A stretch of DNA of 32,705 nucleotides from a virus. Shown here piece by piece: positions 1 through 32,626 of this stretch. Position 1 is the stretch's first letter. Each line of letters begins with the position of its first letter. The notes beneath the pieces are model-generated. The model did no database searches. It worked only from the letters and a program-made list of their open reading frames with translations, and had not been told where the DNA came from. Location of the stretch: positions 11,438 through 44,142 of the IMG/VR virus record IMGVR_UViG_3300005264_000045, one strand, 5' to 3'. A program made the position numbers and the translations under genes.

Positions 1-115
1 AAAAAAAAAGGTTGTACTAAAGGGATTGAGCGTGCAAGCTGTCAGGCTATGGTAACTACTCAACCTCTCTATGGTGCGTGCTGCTAAGGCCGCTCTATAC
101 TTAGCTTAGTTAATG

Positions 116-137
116 ATAGGTTGCTGTCCCAACCTAT
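116..137 (-). promoter_or_regulatory. Hairpin in early leader
   Basis: A perfect 8-bp inverted repeat (ATAGGTTG and CAACCTAT, 6-base loop) lies just downstream of the predicted start of the 151-185 promoter, so it would form near the 5' end of that transcript. A 5' stabilising or processing hairpin is an inference. Confidence 0.4.
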
Positions 138-150
138 ATTTTTCAAAGAG

Positions 151-185
151 CAAGTACATAATAATCATTCTAACTGTACTGTCAA
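151..185 (-). promoter_or_regulatory. Sigma70-type early promoter (outer)
   Basis: On the minus strand there is a perfect -35 TTGACA (180-185), a 16-base spacer and a -10 TATTAT (158-163, five of six consensus bases). It would transcribe toward coordinate 1 and out of the window. No gene lies downstream within the window, which suits an early promoter ahead of genes beyond the edge. Confidence 0.6.
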
Positions 186-410
186 GCTGTCTTAGGTGAT
201 TAACCCTTTCTCATGTCAAGTTAAGTCATGATCTCTATAAGGCATGTTGTCCTTACTTCTTCATGAAATGTTATACATGAGCTTACAGCCGCACTTCCCT
301 CTGTTTACCCTATCAAGGACAGAGTGCCTATACTGCAGGACTTAAGGATTTGTAAGGTGTCTTGAGTGATCTACATATAGATTTCTAAGAGCCTTGCAAC
401 ATCCGATTTG

Positions 411-475
411 TGATTGCATTATAGCAGAATAATTCTACATTGCAAGAACTTTTTTCAGATTCTTTGAACTTTTTT
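411..475 (-). promoter_or_regulatory. Sigma70-type early promoter with extended -10 and A-tracts
   Basis: The minus strand has a consensus -10 TATAAT (418-423) preceded by TGC (424-426), making an extended -10. It also has a -35 TTGCAA (440-445) at a 16-base spacing. Two A-runs lie immediately upstream, about two helical turns apart (near 452-475), resembling an UP element or bent DNA. It reads toward coordinate 1. This is the strongest host-type promoter seen in the window. Confidence 0.65.
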
Positions 476-480
476 TGTGT

Positions 481-597
481 AGATATAAGAGATATAAGAG
501 CATACAGAGATAGCATAGAGAATGCTGAGATACTAAGAGAGAGAGCAGAGATAGAGCAGAGAAGATAGAGAGTGCTGAGAGAGAGAGAGAGAGATGC
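481..597. repeat. Purine-rich AGAGAT/GAGA low-complexity tract
   Basis: The plus strand here is almost entirely A and G, with recurring AGAGATA and GAGAGA words. Its end (GTGCTGAGAG, near 569-578) is the reverse complement of CTCTCAGCAC at 636-645, so the tract and the next repeat block could pair as a long-looped stem. No open frame of note is present. Confidence 0.6.
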
Positions 598-635
598 TCA
601 GGTAGCTCTACCTTCTAACATCTCTTGTACCTACT

Positions 636-695
636 GCTCTCAGCACCTCTTAGTACCTCTTAGCAAACTCTTAGTACTCTCTTAGCACCTCTTAT
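636..695 (-). repeat. CTAAGAGGTN array with 10-11 bp phase
   Basis: On the minus strand the word CTAAG, with CTGAG and ATAAG variants at the two ends, recurs with plus-strand starts near 639, 649, 659, 670, 681 and 691. The spacing is 10 to 11 bases, one helical turn. Most units read CTAAGAGGTN. It resembles the short CCTAAAG repeats beside T7 terminal repeats. Confidence 0.7.
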
Positions 696-826
696 CTCTT
701 GCACCTTCTATGTATCCAGAGCGCTCAGGTGTCCTTAGTACTCTCTTAGGTGTCCTTAGTTCTTAAGAGTATTATAAGGAAGAACAAACAAAGTTAGGTG
801 TACTGAACTTCCTTAGCTACTCCGAA

Positions 827-936
827 TCGTCTTAGTTGTCCTGAGTATTATTAGGTATGCCTAACATTCTTAGGTGTCTTGCATCGTCTTAGTTGTCCCG
901 AGTGCTATTAGGTATGCCTAACATTCTTAGGTGTCC
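827..936. repeat. Direct repeat, two ~53-bp copies at 57-bp offset
   Basis: Copies at 827-879 and 884-936 differ at four positions. Each contains TTAGG-TATG-CCTAA, a short inverted repeat, and ends in CTTAGGTGTC. Related degenerate copies flank them: a TTAGGT-x-ACTG-x-ACTTCCTTAGCTAC segment appears near 794 and again near 964. No gene overlaps. Confidence 0.75.
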
Positions 937-1107
937 TTAGTTATCTTAGGTGCAACAAAGAGCATTAGGTACACTGCACTTCCTTAGCTACCCAGATCAT
1001 TCTTAGGTGTCCTTAGTATTATCAGGCATGCCAAGAGAGGCTATGGGGGAAGAGAGGCTTGGGTGTCGAGCAAAACGCACCGCACGATTCTATTTCAATT
1101 TTTTCAT

Positions 1108-1170
1108 CTTAGTACCTTAGTATCTCTTAGAACACCTTAGAACACCTTAGCATCTCTTAGAACACCTTAG
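1108..1170 (-). repeat. CTAAGGTGTT array in exact 10-bp register
   Basis: CTAAG (CTTAG on plus) starts at 1108, 1116, 1126, 1136, 1146, 1156 and 1166, so six copies are in perfect 10-bp phase. Units alternate between CTAAGGTGTT and CTAAGAGATR. All repeats face one side of the helix, as expected for a cooperative protein-binding array. The array follows the last late gene, where T7 has its right-end short repeats. Confidence 0.75.
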
Positions 1171-1179
1171 AGATGCAGG

Positions 1180-1216
1180 ATAGCCTGGCTTCTCTATAAA
1201 GGGATAGTCAGGCTAT
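1180..1216 (-). promoter_or_regulatory. Hairpin after last late gene
   Basis: An 8-bp perfect inverted repeat (ATAGCCTG and CAGGCTAT) with a 21-base loop starts 6 bases beyond the stop of the 1222-1338 gene on the minus strand. No U-run follows, so it is a poor intrinsic terminator. It may be an RNA 3'-end or processing hairpin. Confidence 0.4.
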
Positions 1217-1221
1217 ACTAC

Positions 1222-1338
1222 TTAGCAGATATAGGTAACAAAAGCATCAGCACTCTCAAGCAAAGTAGAAGCAAGAGCTCCTATGGCAACAAGCAATGCA
1301 AGGATAGCCTTACCTACCTTAGTCTTCAGAAATTTCAT
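1222..1338 (-). CDS. Small hydrophobic peptide, T7 gp19.5-like position
   Basis: This 38-residue frame starts at ATG 1338 behind an AAGGAG ribosome site and ends in TAA. It has a short basic N-terminus (MKFLKTKVGK), one hydrophobic segment (about residues 11-26, AILALLVAIGALASTL) and a C-terminal cysteine, so it is probably a single-span inner-membrane peptide. It is the last gene of the late block, as T7 gene 19.5 is, and 19.5 is also a small membrane-like protein ending with cysteines. The positional match is clear; the sequence match is only suggestive. The function is unknown. Confidence 0.6.
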   Translation of the reverse strand: MKFLKTKVGKAILALLVAIGALASTLLESADAFVTYIC

Positions 1339-1361
1339 AACATTCTCCTTTCTCTTTAAGT

Positions 1362-1634
1362 TTACCTTATCACCATACCCTTTACACCATACTTCTTATC
1401 AAACACATCAGCCTTACAAAGATATATGTTATCCTTAGAAAGCTTGATAATGTAATCGCCAGGTACAGGCTTCTGATTAGAAGAGACTGCAAACTCTAAT
1501 CGAGTCTTCACAGCACCCTTACCTTTATGGGAGTACACATACATACCTGCCTTCTTAGCTTTCTCTATGGTACCCTCTTCTAACATCTTACAAGCCAAGA
1601 CAGTTATAGGCTTGCTTGTATATTCTATTAGCAT
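1362..1634 (-). CDS. Small conserved phage protein (PGDYIIK / CKADVFDKKY type)
   Basis: This is a 90-residue soluble protein with an AAGGAG ribosome site; its start overlaps the end of the upstream gene by 7 bases. The KPITV start, the central PGDYIIK and the closing CKADVFDKKY match the pattern of a small protein seen in many unrelated phages (KPVxVEA, then PGDWIIKG, then YPCKPDIFEKTYE). That family has no firm function. It sits between terminase and the genome end with three other small late genes. Confidence 0.65.
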   Translation of the reverse strand: MLIEYTSKPITVLACKMLEEGTIEKAKKAGMYVYSHKGKGAVKTRLEFAVSSNQKPVPGDYIIKLSKDNIYLCKADVFDKKYGVKGMVIR

Positions 1635-2300: not shown

Positions 2301-2325
2301 CTCTATCTATGATGCAACTTTATTA
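2301..2325 (-). promoter_or_regulatory. Putative phage RNA polymerase promoter
   Basis: On the minus strand AAAGTTGCATCATAGATAGAG matches the repeated element of this genome. It lies 64 bases upstream of the 1977-2237 gene. By comparison with T7 (CACTATAGGGAGA), CATCATAGATAGA would carry the start site at the G of ATAG. Confidence 0.65.
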
Positions 2326-2430: not shown

Positions 2431-2455
2431 CTCTCTCTATGATGCAACTTAATTC
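2431..2455 (-). promoter_or_regulatory. Putative phage RNA polymerase promoter
   Basis: TTAAGTTGCATCATAGAGAG on the minus strand, just past the end of the large terminase gene (2488). Identical over 20 bases to the element before the capsid gene. It is the upstream member of a tandem pair with 2301-2325. Confidence 0.7.
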
Positions 2456-2487: not shown

Positions 2488-4104
2488 TTAGAATCTATTA
2501 CGCCTTGACCTTCTTTGCATCGAGAAAGCATTACGTTCTCTGGCACCTCTATGCGCAGCTTCAACTCCTGTGAGCCAGGTTCTACGGGACACTGGATCAT
2601 TCCAGATCTTTATCTTCTCAACTTCCTCAGCCCTTCTCTTTGCCTCGATAACAATCTGAGTGTCAAAGTCCAGACGGTCAACCACCCATCTAACAGCACC
2701 AGCCAGACTGTCCAATCTGTCATCATGCCTAAGACAGCCTCTATCTCTTGTGAGCATTGAGAGCTGATGCACAAACCTGTATGTACTTTTAAGTTCAACA
2801 GGGTAGATCTCAACAGAGTTTGCATCTTCCTCAAGAGCCTGTCCAGAAATAACGAGCCTGTGTGAAGAGAGAAGAGGTTCAAGCGTGTCAATAATCCTGA
2901 GTTCCTTCTGTCCTGTCTCATACACTTCCTCCAGCTGTACAGGCCATTCATGCTTCTGGAACAAAGGTTTCATCATGTTAGCATGAGCACCGTTACCAAA
3001 GTTCTTTTCGATGCACACAATATTAGCTTTATGCTCCTTTGCGACCTTCACGAGCTTCACTAAATTCTTCTCCTCATACCCACCTGGCACTCCACTGACG
3101 GCCGATATATAAACGTAAGCACCTATGAGCTTAATAACAGCGTAAGCCATCTCATCGGCGTTCTGGCCCCCTCCAGCGGGGTCTATGTACATCACCGTCT
3201 GCTCGAACGGCCTCATCTCATACTCATTCGGAACTGCTCGATATACTTTATACTTCATCCCAAATGAGACGCTCCTGTACATGTTTCTGGGGTCATTAGA
3301 CCAAACGGGTAGTACGGGTCCAACATCTGCGTTAAAGTCCGCTACGATCAAATTTTCGAGCTTTAAGGGGTATCTTTCAGAATCGGCAATGGAGGTATTG
3401 AGCATGTACTGCAGCATGAACTTTGCCTTTCCGAGAGAGATCTCTTTCTCCAGCAGCCTTTCTTCCGGGAACATCTCAGGGCAAGTAGGTTTCCCTGAGC
3501 TACCATCTATGCCACCGCCTTGTCTTAATGAAGGATCTAAGATCATATCAGCTTTAAGCATAGGTGCAAGATTATCAGCATAAGCGAGTTCTTCTTCTTC
3601 TGTAGGATATCTACCAGACCATACTCTAATATGGTACCCACGAGCTGGTAGATTGTTATAGATACTTTCAGTACTCTGTGGTGTTCCTAAGTAGATTATA
3701 TCTCCCTCAACACATATAGTTTCAAACTCTCTGGTTAAGTTCTCAAGTATCTCCCTTGTTATAACTGTTCTTGAGTTCTTCATACTCTCAACGTCATCGC
3801 TAATTAAGACATCAGCACGACTACCCTGAGCACTTGAATCTACACCCATGCACTTAATACTTGGAGACTTCTCTACACCTTTGAACAACCAATGCACATC
3901 ATACCCTTCTATGGACTCTCTGTCTCCAGCATTTTTATCTGCCCTTAACATCCAAAGAAAATCAAGACCATTTAAGATCTGAATAATGAAAGAAGCAATT
4001 TCTTTAGACATCTTGCCACCAGCAGAGAAGATAAGAACACGAATAGTAGGGTTGTGTATTAATCGAAAGACAGCGTAAATAGCCGTAAGTGTCGTCTTAC
4101 TTTG
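2488..4104 (-). CDS. terL: Large terminase subunit, 3' exon (packaging ATPase and nuclease)
   Basis: The large terminase powers DNA packaging through the portal and cuts the concatemer. This exon encodes residues 76-613 of a spliced protein (T7 gp19 has 586). Colinearity with gp19 is clear: QSKTT completes the Walker A loop, then SRADVLISDDVE (Walker B, about residues 170-181), IIYLGTPQS (coupling motif), YIDPAGGGQNADEMAY (first nuclease Asp), CIEKNFGNGAH and CLRHDDRLDSLAGAV (C-terminal nuclease Asp pair). An unspliced frame could start at TTG 4116, but this lies in the intron and lacks a ribosome site, so the reading starts at the splice junction. Exon length 1617 nt plus 225 nt is divisible by three. 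Confidence 0.93.
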   Translation of the reverse strand, partial: QSKTTLTAIYAVFRLIHNPTIRVLIFSAGGKMSKEIASFIIQILNGLDFLWMLRADKNAGDRESIEGYDVHWLFKGVEKSPSIKCMGVDSSAQGSRADVLISDDVESMKNSRTVITREILENLTREFETICVEGDIIYLGTPQSTESIYNNLPARGYHIRVWSGRYPTEEEELAYADNLAPMLKADMILDPSLRQGGGIDGSSGKPTCPEMFPEERLLEKEISLGKAKFMLQYMLNTSIADSERYPLKLENLIVADFNADVGPVLPVWSNDPRNMYRSVSFGMKYKVYRAVPNEYEMRPFEQTVMYIDPAGGGQNADEMAYAVIKLIGAYVYISAVSGVPGGYEEKNLVKLVKVAKEHKANIVCIEKNFGNGAHANMMKPLFQKHEWPVQLEEVYETGQKELRIIDTLEPLLSSHRLVISGQALEEDANSVEIYPVELKSTYRFVHQLSMLTRDRGCLRHDDRLDSLAGAVRWVVDRLDFDTQIVIEAKRRAEEVEKIKIWNDPVSRRTWLTGVEAAHRGARERNAFSMQRRSRRNRF

Positions 4105-4851
4105 CATTGTATTCAAGAAGGTTCGTTAAGCCTTCCCGGTTCTCTTATGAACTCCTGCATGTTTCCATGCAGATTAGACTATCTCTTACATCATATAGAT
4201 GTTCACATGTTTCCAAGCACTTGCTTGTACTTCCTTACGGAATAGTCGTTGCACTAAAACTTATAATCGCAAGATATATGTTTCCATGTAGCATGCCTTC
4301 TAATGTTTAGATAGGTGTTGCGAGACATAGAGACAAGGTGTTTAATATGTTTCCAGTTTCTACCTTTCTCTAACTGTCTACAGACTTCTCTAACCTCTTC
4401 TTCAGTTGTTGTACAGCCTCCATGCTCAAGCCCAACTCTTTTAGTTATCAGGCCAGTATCCCAAGCATGACGCATATTCTCTAAATGAGTACACCATTCT
4501 AAATTAGATACATTATTATTATTCTTGATACCATCCTTGTGATTGACATAAGGTCTTTCTGGATCTCTTGGTAGAAACGCCAATGCAACAAGTCTATGCA
4601 CTGCGTGGTACTTCTGGTTAATGCAGACAAGATGGTAACCATTCTTTATTCTACCTTTAAGAATGTGCCCCGTTGTCTCATTAACAACCACACCATTAGT
4701 ATCAACTGTATATTCATGCCCACTTCTGTTAGTCACTTCTATCTTTGCTTTTTCGTACATTATAACCCTCCTTATAGGATAGTTTTAGTTTTAGTCAGGA
4801 TCGTCCATGTAGGATGTTCCCTGTTTGAATGTGATTACGTAGCCAGTATTA
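4105..4851 (-). other. Group I intron in large terminase gene
   Basis: A 747-nt insertion interrupts terL after GGT (Gly75), exactly in the Walker A loop. The 5' exon ends in T and the intron ends in G, as group I splicing requires. Near the 3' end are an R-like element GTGCAACGACTATTCC (4239-4254) and an S-like element AAGAGATAGTC (4177-4187), whose GACTAT and ATAGTC pair as P7. A perfect hairpin CTGCATG-GAAA-CATGCAG (4155-4172) follows, fitting a P9-type stem. It carries an HNH endonuclease gene (4254-4760). Splicing restores a T7-colinear protein. Confidence 0.88.
4254..4760 (-). CDS. HNH homing endonuclease in terL intron
   Basis: This 168-residue protein has the layout of intron-encoded HNH enzymes such as I-HmuI relatives: an N-terminal NUMOD4-like strand region (about 13-50), the HNH core (H55-R56, VNHKDG 72-77, NNN 80-83, NLEW 86-89), and a C-terminal helical DNA-binding part (about 116-165). 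It would cut intron-less terL alleles near the insertion site and so drive intron spread. It has its own AAGGAGG ribosome site. Its stop touches the intron's R core element, so translation through the end could compete with folding of the ribozyme. A paralogue lies in the portal intron. Confidence 0.88.
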   Translation of the reverse strand: MYEKAKIEVTNRSGHEYTVDTNGVVVNETTGHILKGRIKNGYHLVCINQKYHAVHRLVALAFLPRDPERPYVNHKDGIKNNNNVSNLEWCTHLENMRHAWDTGLITKRVGLEHGGCTTTEEEVREVCRQLEKGRNWKHIKHLVSMSRNTYLNIRRHATWKHISCDYKF

Positions 4852-5076
4852 ACCACGTTGTGCTTGAATCATTCTGAACTTAGGGCCAGCAAATAACCAC
4901 TTACAAATATCTGCTTGTACTCTGTTTAAATCAGGGTTACCAACTATCAAGATGTTTATACAAGTCTGAGCAAAGAGGAGGAAGCCTTCCGAACTATAAG
5001 GGAAAGCTTCCTGAACCTCTGCTAAGGCTTCACGCATCTCAAGTTGTTTTTCTTTAGACATTTCACGTTTAGCCAT
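4852..5076 (-). CDS. terL: Large terminase subunit, 5' exon
   Basis: Encodes residues 1-75 of the packaging ATPase, from ATG 5076 behind AGGAGTGAT. It matches the N-terminus of T7 gp19 (adenine-binding region and lead-in to the P-loop): RVQADICKWL corresponds to QIDMAKVLAN, and FRMIQAQRG to FILQAFRG. The next base triplet in genomic DNA is TAA (4849-4851), so unspliced mRNA would give only a 75-residue stub ending halfway through the ATP-binding loop. It joins 4104 after intron removal. Confidence 0.88.
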
Positions 5077-5087
5077 ATCACTCCTTC

Positions 5088-5110
5088 CTATCTAAGATGC
5101 AACTTAAATA
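5088..5110 (-). promoter_or_regulatory. Putative phage promoter, divergent copy
   Basis: TTTAAGTTGCATCTTAGATAG on the minus strand lies between the small terminase stop and the large terminase start. It differs from the others in the core (CATCTTAG rather than CATCATAG), so it may be weaker. It would give terL its own transcript. Confidence 0.5.
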
Positions 5111-5424
5111 GCTTCTTCTAAGTCTTGGAAAGGTACAATCTTACCTCTCTGTGTATCTCTCAGTTTCTTCAATCTCTTTGAGAGTTCTGAAGTTTCATCT
5201 TCAGCAGCAATCCTGCAGCCAACTCCATTATACTCAACCCATTTCTGCATGGAAGAGAGGTCTCTTGAATTGATAACCATTACAATCTCTTCTATTTCAT
5301 GCCCTTGATTGAGCATCTCTTTTGCAACTTCAAGCATGTATTTTGCTTTCATGTTATGACACTGTGTGATAAGAGAATGTAATCTCCCTATATCATCTTC
5401 AGTTGCAGCGTTCTTATTGCTCAT
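5104..5424 (-). CDS. Probable small terminase subunit
   Basis: This 106-residue protein sits between the small membrane-protein gene and the large terminase gene, the same place as gene 18 (small terminase) in T7. It is mostly helical by composition, charged, with a helix-rich middle and a basic stretch (SKRLKKLRDTQRGK, about residues 81-94). T7 gp18 has 89 residues. I see no direct sequence match to gp18, so the call rests on order, size and composition. The start at 5424 overlaps the previous stop (TAATG); its ribosome site lies inside the preceding gene. Confidence 0.6.
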   Translation of the reverse strand: MSNKNAATEDDIGRLHSLITQCHNMKAKYMLEVAKEMLNQGHEIEEIVMVINSRDLSSMQKWVEYNGVGCRIAAEDETSELSKRLKKLRDTQRGKIVPFQDLEEAI

Positions 5425-11409: not shown

Positions 11410-12540
11410 TTAGAATTTAAAGTTATCATCAGCTTTCTTTACAAAGCTATCAACTCCGCCTTTAGATATTGTCAGCCATCCGTCATTTGCTTTGATCTTC
11501 TTAGCAAATTTAGGACTAACCTTATCTGTCATGAAGTCAGAAGAGAATTTAATCTTAATCTCTTCACCAAAATTATATTCTTCAACAACCGGGGCACCTG
11601 TTATCTCAAGTGCTGCCTGATTATACCTTGTCAATCTCCTATTAAGAAGTCCGGGCAAAGGTTTACCAGCAGCTCTTATAGAATCAAGAGCAAGTACCAT
11701 AGCTTCAACAGTACGCCCTGCATTAGCAGCAGCCTTTGCTTTAGGGTTCTTATCAATAGCTTTAGCACCCATGTTATAAGTTAGATCAGACCAGAATACC
11801 TTCTCCTGTGCTGTCATATCAGACCACTTACTCAGTTTAGTTTTAGCAGTCTTATCTGAATCTTCTAAGACATCTCTTAACATAGTAGTAGCCTGTTCTT
11901 CTGTTATACCTTTGCTTATATCTACAGGCACTCCATCTATTTTAGGCCACTTCTTTTTATCTTTACTGAACCAAACTTTAGGTATCTTGATACCATATCC
12001 TATCTCCTGCTTAGACATACCCTTATCAGGTCCTTGTCCTTCAAGAGAATCAAATGGCATGAACCGTGCACCAGAGGTAGACTTAACATACCCTTTTGCA
12101 CCAGCATTCTCTGCGATCTTAACATCTTCAAGATGCTCCCTCTTTGCTGCTTCATCTGTCATCAACACACCAAGAGTATCATCCTCAATACCCTGTTCTG
12201 CATCTCTGTACATCTCTTCTTGAAGCTTAGCATTCCTCTCCATCTCTGTGGGGTTCTCAAGATTAAAGTCTTCTCCATCCCAAGGATCAAAGTCATCTTG
12301 AAGATCTTCATCTAAAAGACTGTTTATTTCAAACTCATCTAACCCTTCATATGTTTCAGGTGCCTCTTCTGGAGCTGGTTGTCTTAGAATAGCTTCAGTA
12401 GGTGCAGGTGCGTCTGAGACTTCTCTTGCATCTTGATCTACATTAGCAGGATCAAGTAATCTTTCTCTAAGAGTAGTCTCAGGCTGATCTGTACCCAAGA
12501 AGTTAGAAATAGCTTTAACACCTTCTTGCAGTATATTCAT
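11410..12540 (-). CDS. Virion protein with GH24 (T4 lysozyme-like) muramidase domain
   Basis: The start is ATG 12540 behind AGAGGAGG, giving 376 residues; the longer frame to 12903 is a shadow over the upstream gene. Residues 1-130 are acidic, Pro/Glu/Asp-rich and probably disordered. Residues about 135-320 carry GH24 landmarks: KIAENAG with Glu144 as candidate acid, MPFDSLEG, IGYG (180-183), DLTYNMG (252-258) and PGLLNRRLTRY (296-306). It sits among the ejection proteins, so it probably opens peptidoglycan during DNA entry rather than lysis. The catalytic assignment is by pattern and the loops are unusually long. Confidence 0.75.
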   Translation of the reverse strand: MNILQEGVKAISNFLGTDQPETTLRERLLDPANVDQDAREVSDAPAPTEAILRQPAPEEAPETYEGLDEFEINSLLDEDLQDDFDPWDGEDFNLENPTEMERNAKLQEEMYRDAEQGIEDDTLGVLMTDEAAKREHLEDVKIAENAGAKGYVKSTSGARFMPFDSLEGQGPDKGMSKQEIGYGIKIPKVWFSKDKKKWPKIDGVPVDISKGITEEQATTMLRDVLEDSDKTAKTKLSKWSDMTAQEKVFWSDLTYNMGAKAIDKNPKAKAAANAGRTVEAMVLALDSIRAAGKPLPGLLNRRLTRYNQAALEITGAPVVEEYNFGEEIKIKFSSDFMTDKVSPKFAKKIKANDGWLTISKGGVDSFVKKADDNFKF

Positions 12541-15227: not shown

Positions 15228-17689
15228 TATAACCTCCTTCCACGTCTATTTAAGTTACCATTATATTCAAAGTCACGTACCTCTAAAGGCAAGTGACTAT
15301 TAGTCATAAAAGTCAAAGTGTATTGATCAGATCTCTGCCTGATAGATACTCTGTGCTGTCCTCCTACAAGAGGAGCAAAGCCTACTAAATTCTCAGGACC
15401 ACCAAGAGTTCTGTTACTATACTGATACTCCCTTACAGCACCATACTTAGATTCAACTGTAGCAGATAGAGGGCCAGATGTATTGTAATTCATATAGAAT
15501 GAACCAATAGTTAATCTATCCAAATTCAATGCATAACCCTTTTCATCTAAAGCAACAGGATTTGTAGGTGAGTACTTGCAAGTATATCTTCTACCGATGA
15601 TTGAATATACAGGACCTCCTCCAGCACTTAACTCTTCAGTGGTTATCAAGTTACCTGCACCATCTCTTGAAATATCAATAGCAGTTCCTATATCCTCTAA
15701 GTAAGCTCCGGTAGATCTTACAGCTATAAGGTCTTCTATAGGTACATCTGGATAAGGATCTAAAGTAAAGTACCTACCACTACCAGAGTCATAATTAAAT
15801 ACCCTGTATACTTTCCTGTCTAACCTTACGGGAAAACCTAAAATAGAATCATCAGGATCTCCCATATTAACCTTCTCAATCCAGATTGAATTACCATCTC
15901 TTAATATAACCAGCCACAGAGTCTCATCAACAAACTCAAAATGCAAGACTTCATCTGTCTCAGGGAACACTATCTTACCCCAAGAACTCTGAACCTTCTC
16001 AGTACCCTGCCATAACCAATCATACGTATATAAAATATTCTTATCCTCTTTTGTTTTAATAAGAAGAAGATTAAGATTTGTAGAAGATGCCATAATATCA
16101 GGCGCTCCTTTAATGTATTCTTTTACATGATCTGTTACAGGTCTTGCTTTCTTTGTGTCTGTTATAGAGTCTGTGAAGAACTCACGGATACCTGTATAGA
16201 CCCCATACTTAAAAGCAAAGAAGATAGCATCTCCAGATGCAACAGGGTCAACAGAGAGCTGAGCTTCAAATGAAGTGACTCTTCTTAGAGTTGCATTATC
16301 TCTGGTAACAGGCTTGCTACCATCTAACAAGAACTGACTTGTAGTAGAGAAGAAGATAAGATCTCCATCAAAGGCTAAGCTTGTTATCAGATAATTTATC
16401 TGTGGTACGTCAGCAAAGATATCAATAGGATCTGTATCTAAAGCAGCTTGGGTAGTCTCTCTATAGAAGTTAAAGAAGTCATTTGATCTTGTCATTATAA
16501 CAGACTCTCCAGATGTTACGAACAATCTATTCTGGAACAACCCTATACTCTGTATGGTTAATGGGTTAGTCGGATCTACAAAAGTTGGTTGAGGATTAGT
16601 TTCATCATTCCCAACTTCTCTATCAGCCCACTCACCTTTACGCAATGAGAATGTAGCAACACCACTCGTTATGCTTTCCCTTACAAGAACATAAGGCATT
16701 GTAGATGCATCGAGACCTAATGAGATATCAGGTGCAATAGTCTCTTCCCATGTTACATGGTTAGAGTTTGTTCTCTTAGCCTTCAAGAAGAAGTTAGCAT
16801 TATCGCTCTTAGTTGAACCGGGAGGATCTACTTCTACTATAAAGCCTTCAGGTGCAGTACCAGGAAGCATGCTTGTGTTCTCTATCTTCCCTTGAATAGC
16901 AACTGTATTCGCATTGTCTACTTCATCTGTAGCTCTTATTGAGAAGCTGGCATGATCTTTCCTTTCAATAACAATAGTGTTACCTTCAGAATAGAAATCA
17001 TAATCAGCTGTGATATCTGTACCAATCCAACCAAAGTCTTTACCTTCAAGTGCACCTGAAGTGTTCTCACCAGAGCCTCCTGCTAAACAGAGCATCAATC
17101 TCTCTATTACGTATTCAGGGTTTACATAGTAGTGATGACTTGCATCTCCCCCATCAGGTGCACAATAAGTTGCAACCAGAGCATCATCTATATACAACTG
17201 AACTCTCTGTCCATAATCCATGAACTGACAGTAGATTATAGCCTTATGACTTATTGGTGGAGAAGTACTTGAACTTGCATATACCTTCTTCTCTGTGTTT
17301 ACAATGAAGGTGTAATCACCTATAGTCATAAGCCTTAGAAACTTCCGAGGATTAGGACTTCCTATATAGTTAGATGCACCTGCTTCTACATTTACAATAT
17401 GTTGAACACCAGAGGGACTCCAAACTTTAAGATCTCCTGTACCAGCTTCTATTGAAATGAAGTACTCTTCATTAGTACCTCTGTTATAATAATACCATTT
17501 TGAATAAGAAGATAAAAGAGCTGCCGTAAGCTCTGCTGAAGCTTCAGTTCCTTGTCTGTTAATAAGACCTCTTACTATATCAGGTCTTAGATTCTCTGAT
17601 AAAGTACACTGTCCAGGTAGCCTTGTCTTCTCAGGTTGCTGTGAGACACCCTGTATAGGTCTACCTTGATTTGATGTTATAAAACCCAT
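15227..17689 (-). CDS. Tail tubular protein B, gp12-like (nozzle)
   Basis: An 820-residue protein in the gp12 position (794 residues in T7). The opening GFITSNQGRPIQGVSQQPE and the PGQCTLSENLRPDIVRGL segment are the standard start of this family. The rest is beta-rich, in keeping with the propeller-like nozzle that caps the tail. It follows the gp11-like gene by 8 bases. The C-terminal RRGRRL is written by the ribosome site of the next gene. Confidence 0.9.
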   Translation of the reverse strand: MGFITSNQGRPIQGVSQQPEKTRLPGQCTLSENLRPDIVRGLINRQGTEASAELTAALLSSYSKWYYYNRGTNEEYFISIEAGTGDLKVWSPSGVQHIVNVEAGASNYIGSPNPRKFLRLMTIGDYTFIVNTEKKVYASSSTSPPISHKAIIYCQFMDYGQRVQLYIDDALVATYCAPDGGDASHHYYVNPEYVIERLMLCLAGGSGENTSGALEGKDFGWIGTDITADYDFYSEGNTIVIERKDHASFSIRATDEVDNANTVAIQGKIENTSMLPGTAPEGFIVEVDPPGSTKSDNANFFLKAKRTNSNHVTWEETIAPDISLGLDASTMPYVLVRESITSGVATFSLRKGEWADREVGNDETNPQPTFVDPTNPLTIQSIGLFQNRLFVTSGESVIMTRSNDFFNFYRETTQAALDTDPIDIFADVPQINYLITSLAFDGDLIFFSTTSQFLLDGSKPVTRDNATLRRVTSFEAQLSVDPVASGDAIFFAFKYGVYTGIREFFTDSITDTKKARPVTDHVKEYIKGAPDIMASSTNLNLLLIKTKEDKNILYTYDWLWQGTEKVQSSWGKIVFPETDEVLHFEFVDETLWLVILRDGNSIWIEKVNMGDPDDSILGFPVRLDRKVYRVFNYDSGSGRYFTLDPYPDVPIEDLIAVRSTGAYLEDIGTAIDISRDGAGNLITTEELSAGGGPVYSIIGRRYTCKYSPTNPVALDEKGYALNLDRLTIGSFYMNYNTSGPLSATVESKYGAVREYQYSNRTLGGPENLVGFAPLVGGQHRVSIRQRSDQYTLTFMTNSHLPLEVRDFEYNGNLNRRGRRL

Positions 17690-19537: not shown

Positions 19538-19567
19538 TTGTAACCTCCTTGTGTTAAATTGTTATTA

Positions 19568-19600
19568 GAGTACAAGAACGTTCTATATATTCTTATACTC
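19568..19600 (-). promoter_or_regulatory. Leader hairpin of capsid mRNA
   Basis: GAGTATAAGAA can pair with TTCTTGTACTC over 11 bp (one G-U) around an 11-base loop, between the capsid promoter and its ribosome site. A 5' stabilising or RNase III-type hairpin is inferred; T7 gene 10 mRNA also has a leader stem-loop. Confidence 0.5.
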
Positions 19601-19634
19601 TCTTATTCTTCTTGTTCTTTCTTATTCTTTCTTT

Positions 19635-19660
19635 CTCTCTCTATGATGCAACTTAATTAA
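19635..19660 (-). promoter_or_regulatory. Putative phage RNA polymerase promoter for capsid gene
   Basis: TTAAGTTGCATCATAGAGAG on the minus strand, in the gap between scaffold and capsid genes, matching the position of the strong T7 phi10 promoter. Purine-rich AAGAA/GAGAGTA words follow in the transcript, as they do after the 2431-2455 copy. Confidence 0.75.
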
Positions 19661-19672
19661 AAGATGCTGAAT

Positions 19673-20551
19673 TTATATACCTTTCGCAATCCCGGCACGC
19701 CTTAATCTGTCATATTTCTCTGGATTATTCTTGTACTCACCTGATTTCATAAGTTCAAGAAACTGAGAAGAAGAAAGAGCTTCATTTCCACTGAGAGGGT
19801 CACCACCTGTGTTACCTTCTTCTAAGTCAAGAACAGTAGGAGCAGCAGGAGCTCCAGCTTCAGTGAACTTACTATAGAGATCCTTGATCATAAGCTGCTG
19901 CATCTTCAAAGAACCTTCTTGCATCACTTTGTTAAATTCTTCTATCTCTGCATCGGATAGAGAAGAAGCAGCATAAGAAGAGAGGTCATCCCATCTGTCT
20001 TCACCTCCCATAATCTCCATAGTCGCATCCCAGGCTTCTTTCTCTGCCGCTGCTCTACTCTCTAAAGTCTGCTCATGCTCATTCAGCATAGCCAAATTTG
20101 ACGCTTTAAGGCCAGAGAGGTATGTGTCTACCTGCCACTTCCCAAACGCTTCATATGCAGCATTTAAAGACTCTTCAGAGAGAGTGAAATCCTCAGACGA
20201 ATACAGTTCTTTTGAGAGGGCCTGTATATCCAGATTGTGCTCATTCCCAAAATTAATCAGATCTGCAGGGATTGTCACCTCAACCGGTTTCCCATTGAAC
20301 TGAGCTCCCTCAGAATACTTCACATCCTCTGCCACAGATTCTCCTGTAGAGGGCTCTGACGGCTCTTTAGAGGCCGTTTCAGGATCTGCCGGTACAGTTG
20401 TATCACTTTTCGGAGAAACCTCCGTAGAAGCAGGCTCCTGCGTTGTAGAGACTTTAGGTTCTACCGGAGTCTGCACCCCTCCCTGAGCCGGTTCTTGGGT
20501 ATTCGGGGCAGCTGCGTCTGCTACTGCACCCACTTCATTTTGTAAGTCCAT
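19673..20551 (-). CDS. Capsid assembly scaffold protein (gp9-like)
   Basis: 292 residues (T7 gp9 has 307), acidic and rich in Glu, Ser, Thr, Ala and Pro in the first 100 residues, then helical, as scaffolds are. It lies between portal and capsid genes. The segment AYEAFGKWQVDTYLSGLKAS and the closing basic helix (YDRLRRAGIAKGI) suit the shell-binding C-terminus. Its start overlaps the portal stop by 17 bases and its ribosome site is inside the portal gene. Confidence 0.88.
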   Translation of the reverse strand: MDLQNEVGAVADAAAPNTQEPAQGGVQTPVEPKVSTTQEPASTEVSPKSDTTVPADPETASKEPSEPSTGESVAEDVKYSEGAQFNGKPVEVTIPADLINFGNEHNLDIQALSKELYSSEDFTLSEESLNAAYEAFGKWQVDTYLSGLKASNLAMLNEHEQTLESRAAAEKEAWDATMEIMGGEDRWDDLSSYAASSLSDAEIEEFNKVMQEGSLKMQQLMIKDLYSKFTEAGAPAAPTVLDLEEGNTGGDPLSGNEALSSSQFLELMKSGEYKNNPEKYDRLRRAGIAKGI

Positions 20552-20997
20552 CTAAACCTCCTTGTTTTATAACTTCAGGAACAGCATCCTTAGCAGCTTC
20601 AGCCATTTGTGCTTCTTGCTGTGCTTTAGCTATAGCTTCCTGCTTAGCTTGCCATTCTTCATCTGTCATCATGAAAGGTAACTTCATTGAAAGGGATGCA
20701 GCGATCTCTCTGGTATATATATCCCATTTCACTCTTGCCTGAACATCCATAGGCCAAGCAGCTGGTAGTTGCATCATCTCAGTAAACTGCTTCAGCTTAT
20801 CAAGATCGCCAGACTTTCCAAATGCTTCTAATCCTGTAACGATATTAGGTATAACAGCATCATCAGGAAGAGGGAAGCCTACTCTTTTAAGATACAGAGT
20901 GGCTAATGGTGTCTGCCAAGTCTGAGCTAATAAAGAATATACACCACCAAGAGAAGTTTCAAGTTCCTGTGCATCTAACCTCAGCTCTACCGTTGTC
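20535..20997 (-). CDS. Portal protein, 3' exon
   Basis: Encodes the C-terminal 154 residues or so of the portal. After the splice junction it reads TTVELRLDAQELETSLGGVY, which continues the T7 gp8 pattern (RVTAVEIRKNAMEVEQGLGGVY). The lower part (residues after ATG 20777) is helical and ends in a Gln/Ala-rich tail, as in gp8. The in-frame stop at 21002-21000 shows the frame cannot extend through the intron. There is no start signal at its 5' end, so splicing is needed for expression. Confidence 0.85.
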
Positions 20998-21736
20998 CAT
21001 CATGTTGTTGTATGAGTCGTTAGTTCATACGCTGTATGTTACCATACAGATCAGACTATATCTTCCCCGCAATGGGGCTACCTGTTTCGGAACACTTGTT
21101 CCTACTCCTTTCGGATAGTCGTTACACACCAATATTAACTTAATGTAGATGTAAGCCAAGACCAATTTTTACCTTGTCTCACTGACTTTATAGAAGCTAT
21201 ACCAACTGACAGTTTTAATCTATCTCTTATCTGTCTTGCAGTTAATTTTGTATTTCTTAGCTTCCAGATATTTATAACATCCTCTTCTCTTAACTTAGCT
21301 ATGGGATTCTTTTCCCCTTTGTTAGTTTTAAGATGAGTTCTGTACGCATGCAATACGTTCATACTTGCACTGCACCATTCAAGGTTATCAGCTGCATTGT
21401 TATATCTATCACCATCTATATGATTGACTTGAGTATAGTTATGCGGGTTGTCTAAGAAGTGCTCTGCAACAAGTCTGTGCAAAGCATAGAACTTATCAAG
21501 ATGAATCTTGACATACCTATTCTTCTTTGTTATTGACGTACCACGTAATTGTACACCTGTTGTCTCGTTTGTTACAATACCAAGTGTATCTATACTATAT
21601 TCACATTTCAAATCTTTATTAAGTTTTATCTTTCTGTAGAGCATTAATGCCTCCGTAGTTAAAGATTAATTGTTGCTCGGTATTGTCCCATAGGGAGTTC
21701 CACCGAATTAAGGTAGTTTATAGAGGGCAACATTCT
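20998..21736 (-). other. Group I intron in portal gene
   Basis: A 739-nt insertion splits the portal codon for Val between GT (exon, ending in T) and G (exon 2), and the intron's last base is G. Core elements match the terminase intron: R-like GTGTAACGACTATCC (21113-21127), S-like AAGATATAGTC (21054-21064) with GACTAT/ATAGTC as P7, and a perfect CTGTATG-GTAA-CATACAG hairpin (21032-21049). It carries an HNH gene (21135-21644). Exons of 1118 and 463 nt sum to 527 codons including the stop, near the 536 residues of T7 gp8. Confidence 0.87.
21135..21644 (-). CDS. HNH homing endonuclease in portal intron
   Basis: 169 residues with the same plan as the terminase-intron enzyme: NUMOD4-like region (about 14-50), HNH core (LHR 55-57, VNHIDG 73-78, YNN 81-83, NLEW 87-90), a conserved GEKNP-type NUMOD segment and a C-terminal helix-turn-helix-like region (TARQIRDRLKLS, about 134-145). 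The two share layout and many short words but differ along most of their length, so they are not a recent duplication. Its ribosome site is only a weak GGAGG, placed as GGAGGCATTA. Confidence 0.88.
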   Translation of the reverse strand: MLYRKIKLNKDLKCEYSIDTLGIVTNETTGVQLRGTSITKKNRYVKIHLDKFYALHRLVAEHFLDNPHNYTQVNHIDGDRYNNAADNLEWCSASMNVLHAYRTHLKTNKGEKNPIAKLREEDVINIWKLRNTKLTARQIRDRLKLSVGIASIKSVRQGKNWSWLTSTLS

Positions 21737-22854
21737 ACCCTCTCAGCATCACGCCGTACTGCAGAGTTTAATAAGAAAGCTTGACCTATTCTCTTCTTAT
21801 ATTCAGACAGAACCTCAGAGATAGGTGAGAAGTCTGCATATCTTTCTATCTGCAGAATACCTATATCATCCAAGTTACCAAAGATCCATTCACCTGTAGG
21901 TGCTCCAGCAATCTCATCAATATCTGTTTGAGATCCGGGCTTTATCAAGTACTTGATGTCAGCCATAAGAGCCATACCTTTAGCCACAGCTTCAGACAAG
22001 AATGCAATAACATAAAAGTCACCTGCATGGTCTTCTACTAACCCTCTACCATAGTCTTCACCATAGCAAGAGTTCCAACGTAAAGGTATCCAAGGTAATT
22101 GAGCTTCTTCAATCTCCTGAGCATCTTTAATAAGAATACCTTCAACAGACTGAGCAACTATAAAGGTCAACCTATCCTTTCTTTTTATGTAAGTATAGAG
22201 ATTAACCTCATCATCATCCTTAGGAGCCAAAGACTTCTTAATAGTCTTGATGCTCTCTCTTACTTCTTCAGACAATGTAGAGAAAGCTTTCTTCTGAACA
22301 ATAACCAATTCAATAAGGTTACCACTCAAATCTCTTGAGAGACAGTACCTGTCAAGCTTGATAGCCTGCAGTTGCCCATCTCCAGGTAAATAAATACATA
22401 CATTACCTGTTATAATTAAGTTCTTGAAAGCTTCTGTGTATGCTACTCTTGCAGCTATCTTAGTTTGCAAGGTACTACATCTCTTCTCAGCTTCAACTAA
22501 TAGTTCCGCTAACTGCGTTGCATCATAACCTGCTTTGCTAAGCGACACTTTAGTCTCTTGATCAAACTCTAAATTAAAGAAAGAGTGACCAGTTGGAAAC
22601 ATATTCATAGTAAGCTTATTTGCAAGATGATTAACTGCTTGTGCACCTATACCTTGAAAGCCATGCTGGTTAGCAGCGCCTCCTCTATCAAGATCCTCTG
22701 TATCAGGTAGTACATAAGGTAAAGTTAAACGACTATATTCTCTACCCCTATCTCTATAGCCGTTTCTGTCAGAGGATAGGTATGAGTACCTACCCTCTAT
22801 ATCAACAGAGTTGCCTTTACCCTTCATAATTTGAGTTAATAGGGTATCAGACAT
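21737..22854 (-). CDS. Portal protein, 5' exon (gp8-like)
   Basis: Encodes the first 372 residues or so of the head-tail connector through which DNA is packaged. Family features include YSYLSSDRNGYRDRGREYSR, PLYV-like LTLPYVLPDTED, NHLANKLTMNMFPTG and the PWIPLRWNSCYGEDYGRGL stretch near the end. Unspliced message would add five foreign codons (ECCPL) and stop at 21718. Start ATG 22854 has AGGAGGTTATAT upstream and lies 9 bases past the previous stop. Confidence 0.9.
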
Positions 22855-31969: not shown

Positions 31970-32626
31970 TTAATGTGTTTCTTCCCAAGAGTCTCCTATG
32001 CTGTACTCTCCAGCCGTAGGGCAACGTAAGCACAGCTCCTCTCCAGCCTTAGTAAGTGCCTTGCAATAGGCATCTCCAAGTACATGATAACTTCTCTGCA
32101 ATACAAGGTATTTAGAATCATCCTCTGTTATATGATCTTTGATAACAGGTGCAGACCAGATACCTCTTTCATCTTTATGCTGTCTCTTCTGCTCTGTCTT
32201 CCATTCACTTTCTTTTATCTTATACTGCATGGTAGATACTTCATCAGCATCAATCTCGAACTGACCTTCATCATGAATATGGGCAACAATAGGCATCTCA
32301 GATACATCATCAAGGTACCCTTGTTTAACCAGCATGTCCTCAGCTATGCAGTGTGCATGCTTCATCACTAAAGATCCAGTCATCTGAAGAAGAACATTCA
32401 ATGCAGTATTCAATGCAAGCTTTCCATTCTTAACTCTGATTCTACCCCATCTCCCATCAACAGCTAACAGGTACCCAAACTTCTCTCCAGCAGTCTGTAC
32501 CCTATCAAGAAGATTATCAAGATCCGGCAATGATTGTTTGAACCGGGCAACACACTCACCCATTTCATGTTCTGACATCCCTGTTTGTCTGGCAAGATTA
32601 GGGATACCTGACCCATACAAGAACAT
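31970..32626 (-). pseudogene. DNA polymerase family A, C-terminal part (frame broken)
   Basis: The C-terminal portion of a T7 gp5-type polymerase, 218 residues. FLYGSG continues the end of the O-helix region and VAHIHDEGQF carries the motif C His-Asp-Glu; the fingers and palm regions between (RWGRIRVKNGKLALNTALN) also match T7. Its frame is shifted from the fragment at 32631-32705 by a -29 base difference, and the intervening motif B is missing. An apparent ATG at 32626 is internal, with no ribosome site. Called a pseudogene fragment only because of the frame break; the sequence could be in error. Confidence 0.75.

Follow-up and report, generated by a model that had tools for sequence, protein, structure and literature searches.

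What is a dense, oriented array of CTAAG words doing in the largest non-coding gap of a T7-like virus genome, and does it mark one of the physical ends of that genome? The DNA analysed here (32,705 nucleotides, hereafter the window) comprises bases 11,438–44,142 of the 44,142-base record IMGVR_UViG_3300005264_000045. The main genes all lie on the minus strand and make up a T7-like phage set, with tail, internal virion, capsid, portal, terminase, ligase and exonuclease genes within the window, and RNA polymerase, primase/helicase and DNA polymerase genes past its left edge; large and small terminases of the T7 type and a single-subunit RNA polymerase are all present. Positions 1–1361 hold no open reading frame of at least 60 codons; this non-coding gap has the last late gene on one side and the first early gene on the other, and the array sits in this late/early junction, as a T7-like genome end does. 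The closest isolated phages, many of them Autographiviridae, share at most about 54% identity in the large terminase (TerL) and at most 48.5% in the RNA polymerase. Our best explanation, to which as a whole we assign a probability of roughly 0.6, is that the source is an unclassified T7-like phage related to Autographiviridae, that window 1–1361 is its genome-end (concatemer-junction) region, and that the array is a terminal short-repeat array of the T7 type, with a most likely role in maturation.

A preliminary description of this DNA, made from the letters alone, had noted two sets of CTAAG words flanking a 57-bp direct repeat. The seven words of the outer set are all exact (starts at 1108, 1116, 1126, 1136, 1146, 1156 and 1166, with a constant 10-bp step through the last six), while only four of the six words claimed for the inner set are (649, 659, 670 and 681, spaced 10, 11 and 11 bp), the other two being degenerate (CTCAG at 639, CTTAT at 691). 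The 57-bp repeat between them is likewise present, with TTAGGTGTC at 746, 870, 927 and 1003. Overlooked in that description were 13 further exact words at 734–1016, whose spacings are multiples of about 9.5 bp (19, 38, 57), so that the 57-bp block is itself an array of 19-bp units; the half-phase positions of these units are also biased towards CT-N-AG (on average 2.2 of the 4 letters agree, vs. about 1 expected). An inverted repeat (TAGCCTG/CAGGCTA, 21-nt loop) is located at 1181–1215, just before the outer array, and CAGGCTA occurs again near position 44. The features of the region and of the genes that bear on it are collected in Table 1.

Table 1. Features of the putative genome-end region and of related genes and promoter-like sites (window coordinates).
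Feature	Position	Strand	Remarks
Sigma-70-like promoter towards early genes	158..185	-	11/12
Sigma-70-like promoter towards early genes	418..445	-	10/12, TG-extended
Inner CTAAG array	636..695	-	4 exact and 2 degenerate words, 10–11 bp apart
Central repeat block	724..1020	-	19-bp units, 57-bp higher order, 13 exact CTAAG words, degenerate half-phase words
Terminus signature CCCCCATAG	1041..1049	-	sole CCCC(A/G)TAG of the window, both strands
Predicted left physical end/terminal-repeat start	1074..1079	-	from the signature's distance to known ends
A+T-rich, then CGTG(C/T)G element	1081..1104	-	just outside predicted end; resembles the equivalent place in relatives
Outer CTAAG array	1108..1170	-	7 words; ~30–95 bp outside predicted left end
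Phage-polymerase promoter-like site, reading towards array	2302..2324	-	20/23 to 23-nt repeat
Phage-polymerase promoter-like site, reading towards array	2432..2454	-	23-nt repeat
Large terminase (TerL), second exon	2488..4116	-	begins at SP6 TerL residue 76
Large terminase (TerL), first exon	4849..5076	-	SP6 TerL residues 1–75
Small terminase (TerS), candidate array binder	5104..5424	-	PF11123, E 1.6e-9; phrog_891

The array is real, far above chance and coherent in phase. Between 600 and 1200 there are 24 copies of CTTAG on the plus strand (CTAAG when read along the genes), against 2.48 expected from 2000 dinucleotide shuffles (sd 1.52, maximum 9), and the longest run of words in register is six, where no shuffle exceeded two. 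As CTAAG is absent from the plus strand of the same region, the array is strictly oriented. The words keep a common register over 530 bp with a period of 9.55 bp (Rayleigh R 0.859), a coherence equalled by none of 5000 random placements, and the same holds (0/5000) for the 19 words that remain when those at 850–945 are removed. Runs of at least three CTTAG or CTAAG words at 8–12 bp occur in the whole 44-kb record at 649–1170 only; the remaining 43.5 kb contain 97 CTTAG, and across the window the two words together are just mildly common (135 vs. 114.5 expected).

Because the record almost closes on itself, the genome ends have to be deduced. A stretch of 104 bases at the start of the record is found again at window 32,523–32,626, after which the two copies diverge, a self-overlap that is expected of terminal repeats collapsed in assembly, but which permuted genomes may produce as well. 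The diverging copies perhaps represent versions with and without an insert; pieces of the DNA polymerase gene lie at both ends of the record (1–2308 of L002, which belongs to the same genome, and window 31970–32626), with an HNH gene at L002 281–691. The left edge of the window adjoins a scaffold gap of 15 N (record 11423–11437) flanked on both sides by AAAGGTTGTACTAAA.

A landmark for the left end was found in the motif CCCC(A/G)TAG, which follows the first base of the records of T7, SP6, T3, phiKMV and gh-1 at 27, 29, 30, 27 and 28 nt, respectively, those of P-SSP7, KP34, K1F and PP1 at 28, 27, 27 and 32 nt, and those of HJG and Kp7 at 36 and 26 nt. For P-SSP7, the ends were sequenced directly by experiment (PMC3350473). 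Among 18 isolates, the signature stands at the record start in these 11; it lies elsewhere in three (phiY2, CPP1m and VP-HS15, whose records were apparently opened at another point), is present as a variant in two (K1E, Tola) and was not found in two (GRNsp51, Premi) in the parts of the records covered. In 83 contigs (75 from terminase searches and 8 picked for arrays), there are 25 copies of the signature in the 374 kb behind TerL and two in the 422 kb before it, the two sides not being matched for coding content. Within a genus, the sequence with which the terminal repeat begins is known to be conserved (PMC10438801).

In the window, CCCC(A/G)TAG occurs once, at 1048–1041 in gene orientation, and the chance expectation of its longer form CCCCC(A/G)TAG in the non-coding stretch is 0.0008. 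Applying the 27–32 nt offset from phages with known or annotated ends, a distance that here serves for prediction and was not itself observed, places the left end at about 1074–1079; we regard it as very likely that the end lies within 1060–1090. A profile built from 21 non-redundant relatives, with the window excluded, gives this site the highest score among 65,276 positions (32.1; the next reaches 11.7). There is some circularity in what the signature itself contributes to this score. The outer part, on which no selection was made, is supportive rather than decisive, scoring 3.4 in exact register (rank 226 of 65,346) and 9.6 with a 1-nt shift. When relatives are aligned on the signature, two further elements immediately outside the cut prove common to them, one A+T-rich and one resembling CGTGTG. 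The T7 pause word ATCTGTT, found at the right edge of the terminal repeat in T7, T3 and SP6, is absent on the gene strand; being also absent at the repeat edge of phiKMV and KP34, and having no more than a near-match in gh-1, it does not define the family. A near-match in a pyrimidine-rich tract, considered as the right edge of the repeat, was dropped as uninformative. The earlier placing of a genome end near the arrays is supported, though not proven, by the signature, its profile rank and the late/early position of the gap. If the predicted end is right, oriented short-word arrays flank the start of the terminal repeat on both sides, as in T7, and the central block is predicted to fall within the repeat, whose length we can only infer, or just past it.

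Is such an arrangement found in phages with mapped ends? Dunn and Studier reportedly described arrays of the short repeat CCTAAAG beside the terminal repeat of T7. In the T7 record (NC_001604) we located six CCTAA at 175–239 and six TAAAG at 269–334, spaced 13 bp, just after the 160-bp terminal repeat, with more before and inside it. The parallel to T7 that had been drawn previously holds for where the arrays lie (next to the repeat on its outer side, within it and immediately after it) and for the polarity of the words relative to the genes (CTAAG or CTAAAG along the genes in both), but not for the pitch, which is 13 bp in T7 and 12 bp in SP6. CCTAAAG at 13-bp spacing does not occur in the window, where CTAAG is instead repeated at 9.5–10 bp, more densely and continuously over 530 bp; other relatives also differ from T7 in this respect. 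SP6 and K1E (Molineuxvirinae), whose TerS and TerL are related to those of the window, share the 5-bp word and its position (five CTTAG at 260–308 in SP6, nine from 385 in K1E), although with a spacing of 12 (10–13) bp and the opposite polarity, CTTAG running along the genes in SP6. This difference in polarity may mean little since CT-N-AG is its own reverse complement except for the middle base. In one simple periodicity test, the sole strongly periodic stretch of both the T7 and the SP6 genome lay within the first 500 bp.

We extended the comparison to 18 isolates (five whole genomes and parts of 13), defining a chain as equal words spaced 8–14 or 9–14 bp. A chain of at least four words lies near the end in eight (T7, SP6, phiKMV, phiY2, KP34, K1E, HJG and VP-HS15); six (T3, CPP1m, PP1, K1F, Kp7 and gh-1) have chains of three only, which up to a tenth of shuffles match where tested, with the T3 junction being enriched in TAAAG (21 vs. 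3.8). The remaining four (Tola, P-SSP7, GRNsp51 and Premi) show no array in the parts covered, so the array is not universal. As written in the records, the word is TAAAG in Studiervirinae (T7, T3), CTTAG in Molineuxvirinae (SP6, K1E, PP1), CTTGG in Colwellvirinae (HJG, VP-HS15, CPP1m) and CTCAG in the unclassified phiY2; the word looks subfamily-specific (CTAAAG, CTTAG, CTTGG, CTCAG) and the place constant. Nearest to the outer array of the window in layout is Shewanella phage phiY2, with five CTCAG 10–11 bp apart at −110 to −67 from its predicted end. Aeromonas phage HJG, whose RNA polymerase is the closest (48.5%), carries nine CTTGG behind the signature, and Vibrio phage VP-HS15 carries six; in all three the words differ from CTAAG, and the arrays are unannotated in the record parts covered.

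The layout around the end is alike in the window, T7, T3, SP6 and phiY2. Counted from the start of the repeat (predicted for the window and for phiY2), words lie at −94 to −36 (seven) and +60 to +427 (seventeen) in the window; at −110 to −67, at +41 and from +211 onward in phiY2; at −156 to −77, +17 to +94 and +175 to +332 in T7; at −188 to −154, +82 and +224 to +340 in SP6; and at −150 to −44 and +44 to +411 in T3. A literature search that covered subscription papers thinly returned no description of arrays outside T7 or of a family-wide signature.

Of 94 terminase contigs not selected for arrays, 79 extend at least 1 kb behind TerL. Chains of at least four words follow TerL in 22 of these loci and precede it in one (at least five, 7 vs. 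1; at least six, 4 vs. 0), a contrast inflated by the different coding content of the two sides and by the close kinship of several SP6-like contigs. In nine of the ten contigs that have both features, array and signature are no more than 650 bp apart, a limit chosen post hoc (2000 null draws gave 2.24 of 10 on average and 7 at most), and three contigs (L168, L182 and L228) show the order TerL, CTTAG array, RNA polymerase. The closest relative (L073, TerL 75%) ends short of the array; searches through RNA polymerase and bacterial genomes yielded no closer junction, and a 16-mer from the central block matched seven contigs, none with TerL. Two broader scans were rejected as evidence. Four CTTAG at 10 bp occur in 51 viral contigs and a control word in 45 (five shared), so that the word is not enriched among viruses at large. 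TerL was seen on 4 of the 51 CTTAG loci and on one of the 45 control loci, the single control case being itself an array at 10 bp that follows TerL; this is no clear difference. A scan at 12-bp spacing is contaminated by codon-multiple repeats. Around position 17124, the SP6-like contig L070 has nine CTAAG along the genes instead of CTTAG and no terminus signature, and we read its end region as inverted or misassembled. More than 20 CTTAG at exactly 10 bp are found near a primase/helicase-like gene in contigs L031 (1957–2191) and L036 (5797–6031).

Cumulatively, these comparisons suggest that the array belongs with the terminal short-repeat arrays of T7, probably as docking DNA for the maturation/packaging complex. 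In the mechanism that we propose, the words would be weak repeated contacts for this complex (both terminase subunits and possibly a paused phage RNA polymerase), which would load cooperatively on the array and so come to stand beside the cut site, marked by the A+T-rich element and CCCCCATAG. That the array is specifically a docking site for terminase is plausible at somewhat below even odds. The gene taken for the small terminase in the preliminary description indeed matches Pfam PF11123, the family of T7 gp18, and PHROG 891. Its predicted model is all-helical, with four helices and a mean pLDDT of 83.1; in a fold search against the PDB, which we regard as uninformative, it matched nothing at E ≤ 0.001, solved ring terminases included. 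The TerL gene is split in the region 4116–5076, within the likely ATP-binding loop according to the alignment consensus; between its two exons lie an HNH endonuclease (4254–4760) and a weak match to a group I intron (4155–4320, E 2e-5, below the Rfam cut-off). The portal gene is split too (20535–22854): 21718–22854 and 20535–20777 match the ends of one portal profile, with another HNH endonuclease (21135–21644) between them.

The same region could instead serve transcription or replication at the junction, with a host or phage DNA-binding protein on the array pausing RNA polymerase, shielding the ends or holding early promoters open. We consider this unlikely, yet the best of the alternatives. 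The two phage-polymerase promoter-like sites at 2432 and 2302 read into the array, and two sigma-70-like sites lie just past it; the 23-nt promoter-like repeat, near AATTAAGTWGCATCATWGATAGA, recurs at 11 places (eight in the window, three in L002), all on the gene (minus) strand. At the T7 junction, the polymerase, together with lysozyme, pauses and encounters gp18/gp19 (PMC3276506). The roles may therefore overlap. Further, 10-bp arrays of other words at 2339–2463 and 19564–19653 are close behind phage promoters. Against this reading, the outer array lies outside the terminal repeat, away from the early promoters, the one periodicity test described above confines strong periodicity in T7 and SP6 to the end region, and the promoter-like sites are not above chance (six sigma-70-like sites vs. 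5.9 in shuffles). A search for RNA families in window 1–1400 returned nothing credible.

Those arrays of unrelated words, together with one at L002 10826–10935, are all non-coding and bear also on a less probable alternative, namely that the CTAAG array is a by-product of replication slippage, tandem duplications gathering in non-coding DNA, of which the end region is the largest stretch. A genome-wide tendency to 10-bp tandem growth in non-coding DNA is possible, arrays of the control word are equally common in viruses, and the array itself shows recent duplications (a 30-bp unit 96% alike at 1114–1171, and the 57-bp copies). However, CTTAG was kept while the spacers drifted, the half-phase positions of the 19-bp units are still word-like, and distant relatives with mapped ends have arrays at the same position made of other words. 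The confinement of CTTAG runs to the genome end, with none elsewhere in the record, is what slippage alone leaves unexplained.

The preliminary description had also read the array as helically phased and as suggesting a filament or ring of terminase or another protein. Both readings are unproven because the spacing is 12–13 bp in T7 and SP6, and because the phage of the window has 10-bp arrays of other words elsewhere. Published models for other phages (PMC4737164) would let DNA wrap around a ring of TerS at contacts separated by one turn, and a review (PMC9611059) doubts that DNA wrapping confers specificity. SF6, like SPP1, offers a likeness in having repeats beside the packaging start, and its small terminase is proposed to select DNA that wraps round the ring, adjacent HTH motifs being separated by about one helical turn; its DNA-binding domain weakly prefers TTAGGTT (PMC4737164). 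In these phages, the repeats turned out to have no directing role in binding, and the TerS of the window is of another family (PF11123). SPP1 and SF6 are headful phages. A related alternative, in which TA steps every ~10 bp merely ease bending or wrapping, nucleosome-like, round a ring with no base-specific contacts, is improbable: a spacing of 12–13 bp in T7 and SP6 would lose helical phase, the coherent period here is 9.55 and not 10.5 bp, and the TerS model, as noted, resembles no solved ring at the E value used. Spacings of 9.5–13 bp among relatives argue against a signal of helical phase alone. Finally, GTGTC is a T7 primase site, and the block holds six on the plus and none on the minus strand (0.4 and 0.2 expected), but a role as primase start sites is very improbable, since the GTGTC copies are carried by the unit that is repeated in the central block, the outer array lacks them, and the primase of SP6 differs in specificity from that of T7.

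No function is known to have been established for the short repeats that adjoin the terminal repeat of T7. Keeping in mind that a maturation array of the T7 kind is our preferred reading, it is conceivable, although speculative and rather doubtful at present, that T7-group phages have a fixed terminus element in common, made up of an A+T-rich stretch, the cut and CCCC(A/G)TAG, with a flanking loading array whose subfamily-specific word (CTAAAG, CTTAG, CTTGG, CTCAG, here CTAAG) co-evolves with the maturation complex, the array acting as a cooperative terminase track and the word deciding which genomes the terminase cuts. The recurrence of one layout with differing words and spacings in distant relatives indicates that place, orientation and repetition are kept, and that the letters and the helical pitch are not. 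This pattern suggests swap experiments, and the common position of the arrays makes their function testable. The terminus signature, in turn, would allow the genome ends of many assembled T7-like phages to be placed without reads.
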